Shown here: positions 5,427-17,783 of the stretch, in pieces
Position numbering within the stretch: position 1 is the stretch's first letter
Layout: every line of letters begins with the position of its first letter
Source of the DNA: Chloroflexota bacterium
GTDB lineage: Bacteria > Chloroflexota > Limnocylindria > Limnocylindrales > CSP1-4
DNA: 59,287 nt
Reading direction: 5' to 3'
Assembly (NCBI GenBank): GCA_021802585.1
Contig: JAJZRQ010000009.1
Coordinates: 1 to 59,287, forward strand
Notes under the pieces: generated by a model
Told to the model about the DNA's origin: nothing
Databases searched by the model: none
The model's input: the letters and a program-made list of their open reading frames with translations, nothing else
Made by a program: the position numbers and the translations under genes

Positions 5427-5446
5427 AGAGAGGAGGAGCACAGAGC

Positions 5447-7180
5447 ATGCCCGGACGTCCGTGGCGCGCCCGACTGGCTGCCCTCGGCGCTGGCACCGCG
5501 ATCCTCATCGCGGCATGCGGCGGCGCGGCGAGCCCGTCCCCCACCCAGGCACCGACGCAGGCCCCGACGCAGGCCCCCAGCGCGACTCCGTTCGAGGCCA
5601 TGTCGTACCCGACGGCCGGCGAGGTCGACTGCGCGGCGGGGACCTACAACGGCAAGCCGTACACCGGCATGATCAAGTCGATCAAGGCCCTCGACGCGAA
5701 GACGGTCGAGTTCACCCTCTGTGGGTCGGACCCGGCCTTCCTCTCGAAGGTGGCGTTCAGCCCCTTCGCGATCAACGACACCGCCTACCTCGAGAAGGCG
5801 GCGGCGGACGGCTCGATCGTCCGCAACCCGAACGGCACCGGCCCGTACAAGCTCAAGGAGTGGGTCCAGGGCGACCACATCACCCTGGAGGCGAACCCGA
5901 CGTACTGGGGCACCGCGCCGCTCGTCCCCGAAGTCGTCTTCAAGTGGAGCACGGAGGCCGCCCAGCGGCTCGTCGAGCTCCAGTCCGGCAACGCCGACGG
6001 GATCGACAACCCCGGCCCGACCGACTTCGCGACGATCGCGAACGACCCGAACCTGAAGCTCTACCCGCGCGAAGGCCTCAACGTCTTCTACGTCGGGATG
6101 AACAACACGTACCCGCCGTTCGACAACGAGAAGGTCCGCCAGGCGGTCGCGATGGGCATCGACCGGCAGCGGATCGTCGACAACTTCATGCCGCCCGGCT
6201 CGACCGTGGCGAGCCACTTCACGCCGTGCGCGATCCCCAACGGGTGCGTCGGCCCAGAGTGGTACTCCTTCGACGTCGCGGCCGCCAAGAAGCTCCTCGC
6301 CGAGGCCGGCTTTCCCGACGGCTTCCAGACGACGATCCACCTCCGTGACGTCGTCCGCGGCTACCTCGCCCAGCCGGTCATCGTCGCCCAGGACATCCAG
6401 GCCCAGCTGAAGACGAACCTGAACATCGAGGCGAAGATCGACGTCCAGGAGTCGGGCACGTTCATCGACAACGCTGACGCCGGCAAGCTCGACGGGATCC
6501 ACCTCCTCGGGTGGGGCGCCGACTACCCCGACGTCACGAACTTCCTCGACTACCACTTCGGCGCCGGCTCGAGCGCCCAGTTCGGCAAGAAGTACCCTGA
6601 CATCGTGGCGGCCCTCCAGGAGGGCGCGAAGGGCGCCAACGACGACGTCCGGAAGCCCGCCTACGAGCAGGCCAACACCCTCATCAAGCAGCACGTGCCG
6701 ATGGTCCCGATCTCGCACGCCGGCTCGGCGACGGCCTTCAAGGCCGACGTGGAGGGCGCCCACAGCTCGCCCCTCACGAGCGAGGTGTTCTCGGTCATGA
6801 AGCCCGGCGACCGCAGCCAGCTGGTCTGGATCCAGAACGGCGAGCCGGCGGGCATCTACTGCGCCGACGAGACCGACGGCGAGGCCCTCCGGGTCTGCGA
6901 GCAGATCACCGAGGCCCTCTACGGCTTCGAGGTCGGCGGCACGAAGGCGATCCCGGTCCTCGCGACCGCCTGCACGCCGAACACCGACCTCGCGGTCTGG
7001 ACGTGCACCCTCCGCGACAACGTGACGTTCGCCGACGGCGCGACGCTCGACGCGAACGACGTCGTCCTCTCCTATGCGGTCCAGTGGGACGCGGCGCACC
7101 CGCTCCACAAGGGCCGGGACGGCAGCTTCACGTACTTCCCGAGCCTCTGGGGAGGCTTCCTCAACCCGCCGGCGCAGTAG
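5447..7180 (+). CDS. Peptide-type ABC transporter substrate-binding lipoprotein, apparently circularly permuted
   Basis: The 577-residue product starts at ATG 5447 after AGGAGG. It has a lipoprotein signal (Arg-rich start, hydrophobic stretch, IAAC with Cys24) and a PTQA-repeat linker. The mature domain belongs to the family-5 (DppA/OppA) binding proteins, but its parts are reordered. It opens with the block that usually follows the first 130 residues (KSIKALDAKTVEFTL), then NGTGPYKLKEW near residue 129, NNTYPPFDNEKVRQAVAMGI and AEAGFPDGF. The usual C-terminal part follows. After it, residues about 455-577 carry what is normally the N-terminus: LVWIQNGEP, then EQITEALYGFE, then TCTLRDNVTFADGATLDANDVVLSY. 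The paralogue at 15789-17783 keeps the normal order. It should capture peptides outside the membrane and hand them to the permeases encoded downstream. Confidence 0.9.
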   Translation: MPGRPWRARLAALGAGTAILIAACGGAASPSPTQAPTQAPTQAPSATPFEAMSYPTAGEVDCAAGTYNGKPYTGMIKSIKALDAKTVEFTLCGSDPAFLSKVAFSPFAINDTAYLEKAAADGSIVRNPNGTGPYKLKEWVQGDHITLEANPTYWGTAPLVPEVVFKWSTEAAQRLVELQSGNADGIDNPGPTDFATIANDPNLKLYPREGLNVFYVGMNNTYPPFDNEKVRQAVAMGIDRQRIVDNFMPPGSTVASHFTPCAIPNGCVGPEWYSFDVAAAKKLLAEAGFPDGFQTTIHLRDVVRGYLAQPVIVAQDIQAQLKTNLNIEAKIDVQESGTFIDNADAGKLDGIHLLGWGADYPDVTNFLDYHFGAGSSAQFGKKYPDIVAALQEGAKGANDDVRKPAYEQANTLIKQHVPMVPISHAGSATAFKADVEGAHSSPLTSEVFSVMKPGDRSQLVWIQNGEPAGIYCADETDGEALRVCEQITEALYGFEVGGTKAIPVLATACTPNTDLAVWTCTLRDNVTFADGATLDANDVVLSYAVQWDAAHPLHKGRDGSFTYFPSLWGGFLNPPAQ

Positions 7181-7199
7181 CCGGACCGCGCACCGTCCC

Positions 7200-7233
7200 G
7201 ACGGGGGGCGCCGCTCGAGCGGCGCCCCCCGTC
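7200..7233 (+). terminator. Perfect 34-base palindrome between binding-protein and permease genes
   Basis: Bases 7200-7216 are the exact reverse complement of 7217-7233, forming a very stable stem. It lies 19 bases after the binding-protein stop and 33 bases before the first permease. Such stem-loops often protect the upstream mRNA or partly terminate transcription, giving more binding protein than permease. Confidence 0.6.
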
Positions 7234-7266
7234 GCTTCCTCCCCCATGGAGCCCGCCTGACCCGGA

Positions 7267-8343
7267 ATGAGCCGCTTCATCATCCGGCGCCTGCTCCTCA
7301 GCATCCCCGTCCTGCTCGGCGTCGTGACCCTCGTCTTCGTCCTCGCCCGGGTCATCCCGAGCGACCCCTGCCGGGCCGCGCTCGGGGAGAAGGCGACCGA
7401 CGCGATCTGCGCCGCCTTCAACACGCGGTACGGCCTCGACCGGCCGATCGTCGTCCAGTACGTCGGCTACATCGGCCAGATCCTCGGGGGCGACCTCGGC
7501 ACCTCGATCCGGTTCAACCGGACCGTCGCCGAGATGCTCGTCGAGCGGCTCCCCGTCACCGTGGAGCTCACCCTCTACGCCCTCCTGTTCGCGACGGTCG
7601 TGGGGATCACCCTCGGGCGGATCTCGGCGATCCGGCGGAACTCGCCGGCGGACGTGGGGACGATGATCATCGCCAACCTCGGCGTCTCGATCCCCGTCTT
7701 CGTCCTCGGCCTCATGCTCGCCTACCTCTTCGCGGTCGTGCTGAAGGGCTCGCCGATCGCGCTGCCGCCGTCGGGGCGGCTCTCGCCCGGCGTCGACGTC
7801 GTGCCCCTCGCCGAGGCGTGGGGCCTCCAGGGGCTCGGCGGGCCTCCGCGCCTCATCCTCGACTTCGTGTCGAACATCAACACGTTCAACGCGGTCCTCA
7901 CGCTCAACGGACCGCTCCTCGTCGACACGCTGCGGCACATGGTCCTGCCGGCCATCGCCCTCGGGACGATCCCGATGGCGATCATCGCCCGGATGACGCG
8001 CTCCAGCCTCCTCGACGTCCTGGGGCTCGACTACATCCGGACGGCGCGGGCGAAGGGCGTCTCGGAGCGGCGCGTCGTGAGCGCGCACGCGATGCGGAAC
8101 GCCCTCCTGCCCGTCGTCACCGTCATCGGGCTCTCGCTCGGCGGGCTCCTCTCGGGCGCGGTGCTCACCGAGACGATCTTCAACCTGACGGGAATCGGGA
8201 AGACGATCGTCGAGGCGATCACCGGCCGCGACTACATCGTCATCCAGGGGGTCGTCATCGTCGTCGCCGTGATCTACGTCGTCGTGAACCTCGTCGTCGA
8301 CGTGTCGTACGCGATGCTCGACCCGCGGATCCGCCTCGGGTGA
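7267..8343 (+). CDS. Peptide-type ABC transporter permease (DppB/OppB family)
   Basis: This 358-residue inner-membrane protein opens MSRFIIRRLLLSIPVLLGV, the standard DppB/OppB first helix. The second half contains the binding-protein-dependent transport signature: DYIRTARAKGVSERRV, then HAMRNALLPVVTVIG. This EAA-like loop contacts the ATPases. The chain is longer than the usual 310-330 residues because of an insert between helices, about residues 165-205. It pairs with the next gene to form the membrane channel. The start is ATG at 7267, with only a weak ribosome binding site, after the palindrome. Confidence 0.93.
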   Translation: MSRFIIRRLLLSIPVLLGVVTLVFVLARVIPSDPCRAALGEKATDAICAAFNTRYGLDRPIVVQYVGYIGQILGGDLGTSIRFNRTVAEMLVERLPVTVELTLYALLFATVVGITLGRISAIRRNSPADVGTMIIANLGVSIPVFVLGLMLAYLFAVVLKGSPIALPPSGRLSPGVDVVPLAEAWGLQGLGGPPRLILDFVSNINTFNAVLTLNGPLLVDTLRHMVLPAIALGTIPMAIIARMTRSSLLDVLGLDYIRTARAKGVSERRVVSAHAMRNALLPVVTVIGLSLGGLLSGAVLTETIFNLTGIGKTIVEAITGRDYIVIQGVVIVVAVIYVVVNLVVDVSYAMLDPRIRLG

Positions 8344-8356
8344 CGGGGAGCCGCCG

Positions 8357-9304
8357 ATGACCGCGACGGTCGGGAAGGTCCCGGACGCGCTCGCCGACCC
8401 TCTCGCCGCCCAGAAGCCCTCGAGCCTCTGGCGCGACACCCTTTGGAACATCCTCCGCCAGCGCTCGGCGGTCGTCGGCCTCACCTTCCTCGTCTTCCTC
8501 GTCGCGGTCGCGGTGTTCGCGCCGGTCATCGCCACGTACAACCCGAACGAGCCGATGATCGGCGTGCAGGCCGGGGCGAAGGTCCGGATGCCGCCCTGCA
8601 TCCACCTCCTCGGCTGCCCGGCGAACCTGCCGCAGCACCTCATGGGCCTCGACGGCAACGGCCGGGACGTCTTCAGCCGCGTCGTCTACGGCGCCCGGGT
8701 GAGCCTCCAGATCGGGATCCTGACGGTCGGCTTCGCGATCATCCTCGGCGCCCTCATCGGGGCGATCGCCGGCTACTTCGCGGGGAAGACCGACAACGTC
8801 CTCATGCGCCTCATGGACGTCGTCCTCGCGTTCCCGAGCCTCCTCCTCGCGATCGCGATCGTCACGGTCCTCGGCCAGGGCCTCATCAACGCCCAGCTCG
8901 CGATCGGCATCGTGGCGATCCCCGTCTACGCCCGTGTCATGCGCGCGTCCGTCCTCTCGATCCGCGAGCAGGAGTTCGTCGCCGCGTCGCGGGCGCTCGG
9001 CGAGTCGCGGGGGGGCATCCTCGTCCGGCGGGTCGTCCCGAACGCCCTGACGCCGCTCATCGTCCAGGGGACGCTCGGGATCGCGGCCGCGATCATCGAC
9101 GTCGCCGCCCTCTCGTTCCTCGGCCTCGGCGCGCAGCCGCCCCTCGCCGAGTGGGGCTCGATGATCGGGATCGAGCGGAATGCCGTCTTCGCGGCGCCGC
9201 ACCTCATCATCTTCCCGGGCCTCGCGATCGTCGTGACCTGCCTCGCCTTCAACCTCCTCGGCGACGGCGTGCGCGACGCGCTCGACCCGAGGCTGAACCG
9301 ATGA
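8357..9304 (+). CDS. Peptide-type ABC transporter permease (DppC/OppC family)
   Basis: The 315-residue protein has the DppC layout: a cytoplasmic N-terminus, a first helix at VVGLTFLVFLVAVAVFAPVI, an extracytoplasmic segment ending in GLDGNGRDVFSRVVYGARVS, then five helices. The ATPase-coupling loop reads EFVAASRALGESRGGILVRR, followed by VVPNALTPLIV. A Shine-Dalgarno GGGGAG precedes ATG 8357. The periplasmic segment before the GLDxxGRD motif is slightly enlarged and contains two Cys (PPCIHLLGC). The stop overlaps the next gene by ATGA. Confidence 0.93.
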   Translation: MTATVGKVPDALADPLAAQKPSSLWRDTLWNILRQRSAVVGLTFLVFLVAVAVFAPVIATYNPNEPMIGVQAGAKVRMPPCIHLLGCPANLPQHLMGLDGNGRDVFSRVVYGARVSLQIGILTVGFAIILGALIGAIAGYFAGKTDNVLMRLMDVVLAFPSLLLAIAIVTVLGQGLINAQLAIGIVAIPVYARVMRASVLSIREQEFVAASRALGESRGGILVRRVVPNALTPLIVQGTLGIAAAIIDVAALSFLGLGAQPPLAEWGSMIGIERNAVFAAPHLIIFPGLAIVVTCLAFNLLGDGVRDALDPRLNR

Positions 9305-10416
9305 CCCTCCCGGTGGACCGCACGGACCTGCCCGGCGGGGCCGTCATCGAGGAGCTCGCCCCCGTCGCCGCGCGGCGCGTGGCGCGGAGCCGCTCCGACC
9401 GGCCGCTCCTCGAGGTCCGGGGGCTCCGGACGTCGTTCCACACCCGCGACGGGATCGTGCGGGCGGTCGACGGGATCGACTTCCACGTCGATCGCGGCGA
9501 GGTCCTCGGGCTCGTCGGCGAATCCGGCTGCGGGAAGAGCGTGACCTCGCTCTCCGTCCTCCGCCTCGTGGCGAAGCCCGGCCGGATCGAGGCCGGCGAG
9601 GTCGTGTTCGACGGCCGCGACCTCCTGACGCTCCCGCCGGACGAGATGCGGAAGATCCGGGGCGAGCAGATCGCGATGATCTTCCAGCAGCCGACCTCGT
9701 CGCTCAACCCGGTGTGGGATGTCGGGCGGCAGATCGCCGAGGTCCTCGAGATCCACCGGGCGATGAAGCGGAAGGCCGCCCGGGACCGGGCCCTCGAGCT
9801 CCTCCGGATGGTCGGCATCCCCGATCCCGAGCGGCGCCTCCGCTCGTACCCGCACGAGCTCTCGGGCGGGATGGCCCAGCGGGTGATGATCGCGATGGCC
9901 CTCGCCTGCGAGCCCGACCTCCTCATCGCCGACGAGCCGACGACCGCCCTCGACGTCACGATCCAGGCCCAGATCCTCGACCTCATGCGCCACCTCCGGC
10001 GCGAGACGGGCACGGCGATCATCCTCATCACCCACGACCTCGGGGTCGTGGCGGAGATGTGCGACCGCGTCGCGGTCATGTACGCCGGCGAGATCGTCGA
10101 ACAGACTGACATCCACACGCTGTTCGCGAGCCCGAGCCACCCGTACACCCGGGGGCTCATTGGCTCGATCCCCGTCCCGGGCATCATCCGCGACTCCCTC
10201 GAGGTCATCCCGGGGAGCGTGCCGAACCTCATCGCCCTGCCCGCGGCCTGCCGGTTCGCGCCACGCTGCCGGATCCGCGAGGAAGAGGGGGTCGCCGGGT
10301 GCGTCGACGTCCATCCCGAGCTGCGGGAGCTCGCGCCCGGCCACGACGTCCGCTGCTTCCGCTACCACGACGCGGCCGGGACCCCGCTCCGGGGCCCGGA
10401 CGGGCGCGTCTCGTGA
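9301..10416 (+). CDS. Peptide-type ABC transporter ATPase (DppD/OppD family)
   Basis: This 371-residue nucleotide-binding subunit has Walker A GESGCGKS, a Q-loop in [12 protein letters not shown], signature LSGGMAQR, Walker [13 protein letters not shown] and the switch His in LITHDLG. The C-terminal oligopeptide-transporter extension contains the CRFAPRCRI Cys motif. The start ATG at 9301 overlaps the upstream permease stop (ATGA), which fixes it despite the open frame upstream. It forms the ATPase pair with the next gene. Position 4 of the signature (GGMAQR) has Ala where many DppD proteins have Arg. Confidence 0.94.
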
Positions 10417-11459
10417 CCGCCCTCGCCCCGCCGGCCCGGGGGCCGGACACGGCCGCGGTCGGCGCGCCGCTCGTCGAGGTGACGGGCCTCGTGAAGCACT
10501 TCCCGATCAAGGGCGGGATCCTCCAGCGCCAGGTCGCCACGGTGAAGGCCGTCGACGGCGTCGACCTCCTCGTGCGTCGCGGCGAGACCCTCGGCCTCGT
10601 CGGCGAGTCCGGCTGCGGGAAGACGACCGTCGGCCGCCTCCTCCTCCGCCTCATCGAGCCGACGGCCGGGACGATCCGCTTCGACGGCGTCGACATCACC
10701 CACCTCCCCGACCGCCAGCTGAAGCCGTTCCGGCGGCGGATGCAGATCGTCTTCCAGGACCCCTTCGCGAGCCTCGACCCGCGGGCGCCGATCGGCGACA
10801 GCATCGGGGAGGGCCTCCGGATCCACGGGCTCGGGAACGCCCGGGAGCGGGCGGCACGGGTGAAGCGGATCATGGACATGGTCGGGCTCCAGCAGTACCA
10901 CGCGCGACGGTACGCTCACGAGTTCAGCGGCGGGCAGCGGCAGCGGATCGGGATCGCCCGGGCGCTCGTCCTCGAGCCCGACCTCGTCGTCTGCGACGAG
11001 CCGGTCTCGGCCCTCGACGTCTCGATCCAGGCCCAGGTCCTCAACCTCCTGAAGGACCTCCAGCGCGAGCTCGGCCTCACGTACCTGTTCATCGCCCATA
11101 ACATGGGTGTCGTCGAGCACATCAGCGACCGGGTCGCGGTCATGTACCTCGGTCGCGTCGCGGAGATCACGGACCGCGAGCGGATCTTCGCCGAGCCGCG
11201 CCATCCGTACACCCAGGCGCTCCTCTCGGCCGTCCCGATCCCTGACCCCGAGCTCCGCCGGTCGCGCGTCATCCTGGGGGGCGACGTCCCCTCCCCTGTC
11301 AATCCGCCCGAGGGCTGCCGGTTCCACCCCCGCTGCCCGCTCCGCGCGGAGCTCGGCAACCCGGAGCGCTGCAGCCGCGAGACCCCGCAGCTCGTCGACG
11401 CCGGCCGCGACCACCTCGTCGCGTGCCACTTCCGGGGCCCGGACGCGCCGGCCTCCTGA
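10413..11459 (+). CDS. Peptide-type ABC transporter ATPase (DppF/OppF family)
   Basis: The 348-residue protein carries [17 protein letters not shown] (Walker A), [12 protein letters not shown] (Q-loop), [15 protein letters not shown] (signature), [16 protein letters not shown] (Walker B) and FIAHNMG (switch region). The C-terminal CRFHPRCPL motif belongs to the oligopeptide ATPase family. The start is GTG at 10413, sharing GTGA with the dppD-like stop. It completes the first importer operon; a small hairpin follows the stop. Confidence 0.94.
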
Positions 11460-15788: not shown

Positions 15789-17783
15789 TCACTGGGGCGA
15801 GACGATCCAGCTGTCGTTGTTCCAGTAGTAGAGCGGGCTCGCGAGGTCGATGCCGCTCGTCGTCGACGAGACGGACTTCGTCAGGCCCGCGTGCGCCGTG
15901 TCGGACCACAGGAAGTAGTACGGCAGGTCGTTGTGGGCGAGGATCTGGAACTGGAAGTAGATCGCCTTCCGCTTCGCCTGGTCCAGCGTCTGGCGGCCCT
16001 CCTCGAGGAGCTTGTCGGCCTCCGGATTCTGCCAGCAGACGAAGTTGTTGTCGTCCGGGTTCTCCTTCGTCACGCACTTGGACGAATGGAAGATCGAGTA
16101 GTCGTCGGGGTCGATCGAGGTCGACCAGCCGCCGAGGTACGTGTCGAAGTTGTTCGGGTAGCTGAGGAGCGGGAGGAGGACCGTCGCGAAGTCGCCTTCC
16201 TTGACGGTCAGCCCGATGCCGCACTTCTTCAGCTGGTCGGACGCCAGCTGGGCGAAGGCGACGCGCTGGGGCTTGCCGGCGCGGACGTACATCTCGGACG
16301 AGAGCTTCTTGCCGTCCTTCTCGTAGATGCCATCGCTGCCGAGGGTCCAGCCGGACTTCTCGATGAGCGCCTTGGCGCCCGCGACGTCGAGGACGTAGTG
16401 CGGGACGTCCGGGTTGAACGCCCACGAGGCCGGTGGCGTGTTGGCGTAGATCGGGATGCCGTTGCCCTCGGTCGCGGCCTTCACCGTCGCGTCGTGGTCG
16501 ATGCACATCGAGAACGCCTGCCGCAGGGCCAGGTCGCTGTAGAGGCGGCCCGGGCGGAGGTTGAACGCGATGTAGTAGTAGCCGAAGTCGGCGAACGAGG
16601 CGATCTGGAGGTTCGGGTCGGCCGACAGCGCGGCAAGCGCGTCGGAGGTGACCTCGGTCTGCCAGTTGATGTCGCCCTTCTGGAGGGCGGCCGACGCCGC
16701 GGCGGCGTCCTTGATGATCGGGATGAAGACCTTCGCCGGGCCGACCTTCACCTGCTGGGGGCCGCCGAAGTAGTCGTCATTCCGGGCGAGCTCGACGCTC
16801 TGCGCCGTCGTGTACTTCACGAGCTTGTAGGGGCCCGTGCCCACCGGGGCGCGCTGGAAGTCGAGGATGCGGAACGAGGCCGCGATCTGGTCGATGTCCT
16901 TCGAGGACAGCGTCGTGTTCAGGTCGCGGAGCTGGTCGTACAGCGCGGAGCCGTACGACGAGTTGTCGACGGTCCCGTCGGCGGAGGTGAACTGCGCCTT
17001 GTCGGGGAGGGTGATGCCGGCCTTCTGGAGGATCGCCTCGAGGTCGGTCACGTACGTCGCGTAGTCGCAGGTCGCGGGCGGGGCGTCGCCGCCGCACGCC
17101 GCGTCGTTGACCGCCGCGTCGATCTTGTCGTAGAGGGCCTTGACGTCCGTCGGGTTGACGGCGCCGGAAGCGGCCTGGAGGCGGCCGAACGAGTCGCGGA
17201 CGGCCTTCTCCGGGACGATGACGACGGAGAGGCCGGAGACGAGGAACGGCGCGTACTTCTGCTTGAGCTTGAAGACGACCGTGCTGTCATCCGGCGCCGT
17301 CACCGACTCGACGTTGTCCTGGAGCGACGAGCAGCCGTCCGGGATGTACGTGCAGTTCGGCGAGAGGCCGAGCTGGTACGTGAAGACGACGTCCGAGGCC
17401 TTGAGGGTCGTGCCGTCGGAGAACTTCACGCCGGGGCGGAGCTTGACGGTCCACGTCAGCCCGTCGGCCGACGTCTCGGGGAGGTCCGCCGCGATGTCGG
17501 GGACCATCTCCAGCTTGTTGTTGGCCCGGTAGAGGCCGTTGTACAGGAGCCCCACGACCCAGCTGGTCGGCAGGTCGGTGTACGCGTACGAGAAGTAGGT
17601 GGGCTCGCCGTCGAGCGCGAACTTGAAGTCCGCGGACGTCGGCGCCGCAGATGCGGATGGGGCCGGGGTCTCGCCGGGGGCGGGCGTGGCCGGGGCCGGG
17701 GTCGGCGACGCGGATCCGCCGCAGGCCGCAACGCCGATGGCGAGCGCCCCGAGCAGGCCGAGACTGCGCCGTCTCAAGCTCAT
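15789..17783 (-). CDS. Peptide-type ABC transporter substrate-binding lipoprotein with a large insertion
   Basis: The 664-residue product has a lipoprotein signal (RRRSLGLLGALAIGVAACGG, Cys near 21) and a Pro/Ala/Ser linker. A family-5 binding domain follows in normal order: GLYRANNKLEMVPDIAADLP, RPGVKFSDGTTLKASDVVFT, VVIVPEKAV (about residue 190), PVGTGPYKLVKY (about 310), RLYSDLALRQAFSMCIDHDA and PYYFLW. Between residues about 195 and 310, where most members have only 15-25 residues, there is an insertion of roughly 100 residues containing two Cys (ACGGDAPPATCDYATYV). The Shine-Dalgarno AGGAGG precedes ATG 17783. It leads the second importer operon and should bind peptides or similar ligands outside the membrane. 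Confidence 0.92.
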   Translation of the reverse strand: MSLRRRSLGLLGALAIGVAACGGSASPTPAPATPAPGETPAPSASAAPTSADFKFALDGEPTYFSYAYTDLPTSWVVGLLYNGLYRANNKLEMVPDIAADLPETSADGLTWTVKLRPGVKFSDGTTLKASDVVFTYQLGLSPNCTYIPDGCSSLQDNVESVTAPDDSTVVFKLKQKYAPFLVSGLSVVIVPEKAVRDSFGRLQAASGAVNPTDVKALYDKIDAAVNDAACGGDAPPATCDYATYVTDLEAILQKAGITLPDKAQFTSADGTVDNSSYGSALYDQLRDLNTTLSSKDIDQIAASFRILDFQRAPVGTGPYKLVKYTTAQSVELARNDDYFGGPQQVKVGPAKVFIPIIKDAAAASAALQKGDINWQTEVTSDALAALSADPNLQIASFADFGYYYIAFNLRPGRLYSDLALRQAFSMCIDHDATVKAATEGNGIPIYANTPPASWAFNPDVPHYVLDVAGAKALIEKSGWTLGSDGIYEKDGKKLSSEMYVRAGKPQRVAFAQLASDQLKKCGIGLTVKEGDFATVLLPLLSYPNNFDTYLGGWSTSIDPDDYSIFHSSKCVTKENPDDNNFVCWQNPEADKLLEEGRQTLDQAKRKAIYFQFQILAHNDLPYYFLWSDTAHAGLTKSVSSTTSGIDLASPLYYWNNDSWIVSPQ

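Follow-up and report, generated by a model that had tools for sequence, protein, structure and literature searches.

A gene in the stretch of Chloroflexota DNA analysed here (the window, 59,287 nucleotides in all) encodes a substrate-binding lipoprotein whose two sequence blocks stand in swapped order. We consider it best explained as a natural circular permutation of a cluster-C, DppA-like receptor that arose once and works in a peptide importer, a reading to which we give a probability of roughly 0.85. The sequences were already public; new here is the recognition of the topology, of its single origin and of the traits linked to it.

The features of the gene and its surroundings are collected in Table 1. 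SBP_bac_5 is the sole Pfam family in the 577-residue protein (257.5 bits vs a cut-off of 32.4), and the match falls into two stretches. The better one, residues 68–375, covers profile positions 61–365, while the C-terminal 129 residues taken alone (window 6791–7177) match positions 2–52 with E = 2.1e-10, which is far from chance. In a phmmer search against solved structures, residues 484–565 likewise matched 36–123 of the HbpA2 chain (3tpa) and residues 74–443 matched 129–502. The canonical SBP_bac_5 order, with the N-terminal strands and the (F/H)xDG...A.DVV motif first and domain II after them, was not found; the motif block is C-terminal. This displacement had been recognised in the sequence-only reading, but its boundary, set there at about residue 455, lies nearer residue 457. 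The displaced block terminates at an FGGFLN-type loop, which forms the new C-terminus (stop codon at 7178–7180), and the larger block ahead of it contains R304 and D359, which correspond to R355 and D408 of mature DppA, both of them residues that contact its ligand. When residues 457–577 were placed in silico before residues 71–456, the rotated sequence gave one SBP_bac_5 stretch of 267.5 bits over profile positions 2–365 (221.9 and 40.7 bits for the pieces apart), and HbpA2 and DppA were each matched in a single stretch. Comparison of the whole native chain with solved structures by sequence gave no collinear full-length match, nor was a normal-order alignment of the entire protein obtained, the matches staying split and swapped until the chain was rotated. 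Judged from these matches, the permuted protein is a topological variant of SBP_bac_5 and homologous to it.

Table 1. Positions in the window of the permuted gene, its parts, its operon and the normal-order paralogue.
Feature	Position	Strand	Basis or remark
AGGAGG ribosome binding site	5431-5436	+	10 nt ahead of ATG at 5447; read from sequence
Circularly permuted family-5 substrate-binding lipoprotein gene, 577 aa	5447-7180	+	split/swapped Pfam SBP_bac_5, AF2, collinear homologues
Signal peptide, lipobox LIAA-C24	5447-5518	+	sequence
Low-complexity Thr/Pro/Ala linker leading into new N-terminal tail with C62 (5630-5632)	5519-5656	+	
Second-in-normal-order block, residues 71-450: rest of domain I, domain II, return	5657-6796	+	Pfam profile 61-365, 1dpp alignment, conservation
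Junction of old C-terminus and old N-terminus, residues 451-456, MKPGDR	6797-6814	+	4-6 residues between aligned blocks, 90/90 members
First-in-normal-order block, residues 457-577	6815-7177	+	Pfam profile 2-52, junction lists, cysteine pairs
GC-rich hairpin, 16-bp stem, between binding-protein gene and dppB	7199-7234	+	-51.6 kcal/mol, z -4.1 for intergenic stretch
DppB-type permease	7267-8343	+	Pfam BPD_transp_1; alignment to E. coli DppB 8z1v
DppC-type permease	8357-9304	+	Pfam BPD_transp_1, OppC_N
DppD-type ATPase	9301-10416	+	Pfam ABC_tran, oligo_HPY
DppF-type ATPase, start approximate	10410-11459	+	Pfam ABC_tran, oligo_HPY
Normal-order family-5 binding protein (internal control paralogue)	15789-17783	-	Pfam order, block-order count

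The source is a draft genome of 141 contigs, and collapsed repeats can fuse the middle of one gene copy to the start of the next, so that the order could be an assembly artefact, namely a normal-order gene whose tandem duplication was collapsed. We reject this explanation and grant it next to no probability, since the same end-to-end order recurs in independent assemblies from many genera and two phyla, some of them single whole-genome contigs, and since the homologues, at 35–69% identity, have a junction of 4–6 residues every time. Collinear homologues were found in Chloroflexota, in Actinomycetota and in public contigs. Among 400 Chloroflexota genomes, 53 (about one in eight) have a match at E<=1e-100, nearly always spanning the whole protein, and the single-contig genomes G005, G208 and G337 each carry a collinear homologue. 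Named public contigs, partly from the same genomes, gave about 45 strong matches in Anaerolineae, Chloroflexales (Candidatus Oscillochloris fontis), Candidatus Thermoflexus japonica, Promineifilum, Ardenticatena, Aggregatilineales and Acidimicrobiia. A full-length permuted match is present in 6 of 397 Actinomycetota genomes; the other 51 matching genomes of this phylum align with the larger block only, at far lower scores, and all four that were fetched proved to have the normal order.

Altogether, order and break point are identical in about 95 distinct Chloroflexota and Actinomycetota relatives, and their junction hardly varies. Block order was scored with a separate profile for each block, which put the small block after the large one in 99 open reading frames, before it in 45 and on both sides in none; the nearby paralogue proposed as an internal control does have the normal order. 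The two groups are sharply separated by score, and the few exceptions are fast-evolving or broken copies. In all 90 distinct permuted sequences the blocks are joined by 4–6 residues, and in 86 of them the chain ends 0–9 residues past the small block. Normal-order relatives end about five residues past the large block, hence the joining turn must be very short. The break lies in one loop, which in normal proteins reads ...FEYYEYMWGGFDDDSVITAVTALDEYT..., whereas permuted proteins end in ...YFSSLWGGFLNAPAE and begin with ...CDYGGEFKSIEAVDELT...; this opened loop connects the conserved 'YF..(L/W)FGGF' helix to the 'IKSIEAVD..TV' strand, at about DppA mature residue 120. The family thus shows the general marks of a natural circular permutation, that is rotated blocks, fused old termini, new termini in one loop and collinear relatives.

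Some loci deviate from the simple arrangement. Permuted paralogues occur as tandem pairs within one locus in three cases (L084, L120, L121), and in three others the gene is split over two frames by sequencing error or decay (L083, L138, L139). Fast-evolving permuted copies lacking an adjacent permease of their own were seen in L115 (reverse strand, 5453–7681), L116 (6939–8903) and L042 (11346–13727) and are possibly sensors or orphan receptors. Those of L115 and L116 lie beside an operon with a normal-order binding protein, in divergent orientation to it, and carry long low-complexity C-terminal tails.

AlphaFold2, given the native order and an 81-row alignment of the permuted family, returned a model with pLDDT 92.4 and pTM 0.88 (pLDDT 38.7 with the single sequence as input). 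In a Foldseek comparison, which aligns in chain order only, this model found DppA (5f1q) at probability 1.0 (TMt 0.70). The match spans about 400 columns rather than the whole chain, as expected for a permutant, and the rotation leaves roughly that much of the chain in common order. The best 50 Foldseek matches are all family-5 type structures. The native-order protein is therefore confidently predicted to adopt the two-lobed cluster-C, family-5 fold; we know of no purified or solved member of the permuted family.

Trees were built on the two blocks arranged in canonical order, at first with 85 rows and then, more carefully, with 59. All permuted sequences form one clade (SH-aLRT 99 with 85 rows, 100/99 with 59), which, when rooted on Bacillota, is nested within normal-order proteins and adjoins three of them from Chloroflexota (L100, L102 and L104). 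An exception to the placement beside these three is L002, a long-branched row from the source genome whose position is unsure. Hence, one permutation is enough to account for the family, and an ancient, single event in or near Chloroflexota is the best explanation. That the fold was opened several times independently, the loop being an easy place for it, is very improbable: the divergent permuted copies L115, L116, L117 and L118 might point that way, but break point and junction are shared by all permuted sequences, which fall into a single clade, and the trees contain no permuted protein that is well supported inside a normal-order clade. From a single event, the permuted gene would have been kept by descent and by transfer to Actinomycetota, whose sequences stand at two places within the clade (L066 at one, L145/L147/L149 at the other), pointing to two or more transfers. 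Circular permutations usually arise when a gene is duplicated in tandem and copy one then loses its first block and copy two its second. Such a duplication-then-trimming origin, as put forward in the sequence-only reading, is plausible here too, although none of about 100 permuted open reading frames was an intermediate carrying the block on both sides. The proposal in that reading that the protein represents a permuted binding-protein family is borne out by the homologues of shared order, their single clade and the confident fold prediction, and the existence of independent genomes, some in one contig, disposes of the collapsed duplication that it had raised as an objection.

Permuted proteins also share cysteines that occur in pairs and are for the most part missing from normal-order kin. 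C62 and C92 (5720–5722) are both Cys in 80 of 81 family members, and the C92 column holds Cys in none of 30 normal-order sequences; C472 and C484 are both Cys in 78 of the 81. Two further pairs are present or absent as a unit among the 81 sequences, with no singletons: C261/C267 (both present in 56, both absent in 25) and C509/C520 (45 and 36). The total of cysteines in the mature domain is even in all family members but two. Since the cysteines co-occur in this pairwise manner, we infer that C62–C92, C472–C484, C261–C267 and C509–C520 would form disulfides. The C472/C484 pair is also found in one normal-order protein (L102) and C509/C520 in three, so these two pairs are not wholly specific to the clade. 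As for their location, the new N-terminal tail contains C62, C92 sits where the second strand after that tail ends, and a bond between them would probably pin or brace the new N-terminus; C472 and C484 lie just past the joined ends, a region that their bond would probably brace.

The gene is followed by dppB, dppC, dppD and dppF in the order of the DppABCDF importer. The operon is complete, with permease and ATPase genes intact by Pfam, and the ribosome binding site and lipobox are present as well, all as noted in the sequence-only reading. The hairpin between the binding-protein gene and dppB probably marks a 3' end or acts as a partial terminator, and so would favour the binding-protein mRNA over the permease mRNA. 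DppB lies directly downstream of the permuted gene in 90 cases, and these permeases form a clade of their own (SH-aLRT 99), apart from the normal-order-associated DppBs, of which the tree contains only 11. The DppB of the window aligns without gaps to E. coli DppB up to and across E41–K42, which line up with the E. coli GER. In E. coli, scoop-loop residues E41–R42 of DppB enter the DppA cleft and bond to the residues that hold the dipeptide (PMC12136057). Position 41 is E in 74 of 77 and position 42 K or R in 75 of 77 distinct permuted-associated DppBs. In the window, C35 (7369–7371) and C48 (7408–7410) flank this scoop; C35 occurs in 77/77 of the permuted-associated permeases and both cysteines in 76/77, as opposed to 1/30 of the normal-order-associated ones. 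Thus, receptor and the permease tip entering it both bear paired cysteines, and a C35–C48 disulfide would probably brace the scoop. Two normal-order-associated permeases (L105 8268, L115 10195) have occasional cysteines near the scoop, which may be convergent.

R304 and D359 align with R355 and D408 of mature DppA (1dpp), which are R383 and D436 in precursor numbering, and are kept in 86/90 and 87/90 permuted members, respectively. In DppA, the dipeptide is bound at its carboxyl end by R383 and at its amino end by D436 (PMC12136057). Both residues are also present in many normal-order kin, so the substrate is not fixed by them. Family 5 binds many ligands, and the top PDB sequence matches include HbpA2/GbpA besides DppA; the same permuted fold might thus bind a non-peptide compound such as an opine, a sugar, a metal chelate or a glutathione-like molecule. 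We regard this as rather unlikely, given that both dipeptide-end residues are kept, whereas HbpA2, which is thought to bind neither dipeptides nor glutathione, is without the Asp (PMC3295651). Since the end-binding residues are kept and the BCDF operon is intact, short-peptide import is the best reading of the protein's role, and a probable one. In a short-peptide importer, the permuted protein would fold like DppA and act as the receptor, tethered by its N-terminal lipid or, in some Anaerolineae, secreted. A short peptide would be clamped at its amino end by D359 and at its carboxyl end by R304; the receptor would then dock on DppBC, and the scoop loop E41–K42 would enter the cleft and free the peptide.

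The permutation also moves the point at which the chain is anchored. Pull from the tether at the new N-terminal exit would act away from the first strand, which lies next to the ligand. A simple pattern, which misses a few more, picked out a lipobox in 61 of 86 scored members, and most of the remainder are either fusions or proteins with a signal peptidase I site of AQ type; several from Anaerolineae carry plain AQ signal peptides. Lipid tethering is hence not the whole reason why the order was kept, and these lipobox-less members likewise weaken tethering as a sufficient reason for the permutation itself. Since the N-terminus now exits in the middle of domain I, added domains are tolerated there. 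A complete SBP_bac_3 domain lies in frame ahead of the permuted protein in three cases (L059, L081, L122); another protein (L063) has two Peripla_BP_6 stretches in frame at this place, and L047 has one, truncated where its contig stops. In L125 and L069, by contrast, the long open frames upstream were rejected as fusions, as they look like unused frame. We put forward, tentatively and at somewhat less than even odds, that a whole 'cluster Cc' import lineage was remodelled after one permutation, with disulfide-stapled ends and join, a braced permease scoop and an N-terminal socket for fusions. If so, the SBP_bac_3 and Peripla_BP_6 fusions would be multi-receptor lipoproteins feeding one or more transporters.

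Whole ABC-importer receptors are rarely permuted circularly in nature. The present case falls within the large DppA/OppA class and has normal-order relatives at 35–38% identity as a natural control, which makes testable how a moved tether point affects docking and transport and how fold and permease adapt after such rewiring. For annotation, it matters that profile searches score permuted proteins as split domains; for engineering, nature has pointed out a place where the DppA fold tolerates a break and takes up fusions. The open-access literature yielded no account of a permuted family-5 protein, which, for a search of that scope, is weak evidence of absence.

With the DppA/OppA family 5 (cluster C, PF00496), the permuted proteins have in common the sequence blocks, the predicted fold, lipoprotein export, the dppBCDF operon and the ligand-end residues; they differ by an order rotated by about 120 residues, by joined old termini, by new termini in domain I and by clade-specific cysteine pairs. 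The nearest well-supported normal-order clade is formed by the Chloroflexota proteins L100, L102 and L104 (~35–38% identity), which occupy the same position before dppB and dppC but have the normal order and lack C62/C92 as well as the permease scoop cysteines, while C472/C484 is present in L102. A 'domain dislocation' between periplasmic binding protein classes was described by Fukami-Kobayashi 1999, as cited in PMC10601554. Here, too, the strand order of binding proteins was rearranged in evolution. That dislocation, however, altered the core sheet from one class to another at an ancient date, rather than being a whole-chain rotation within one family. The one clear precedent that we found is the permuted glucose-binding protein TpMglB-2 (Tp0684) from Treponema pallidum. 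The name 'type Ic / cluster Bc' was proposed for it, and its authors consider tethering a possible reason for the permutation (PMC4990184). TpMglB-2 and the present proteins are both natural, clade-wide circular permutations of the binding protein of an ABC importer, found in tethered lipoproteins, yet TpMglB-2 belongs to another fold class (type I/cluster B, glucose-binding), differs in break point, ligand and taxa and stems from an unrelated event. Its type I/cluster B fold with permuted N-lobe was not found here, Pfam giving SBP_bac_5 only and the best 50 Foldseek matches being of family-5 type. The permuted family would thus be the cluster-C counterpart of TpMglB-2, brought about by an independent event.
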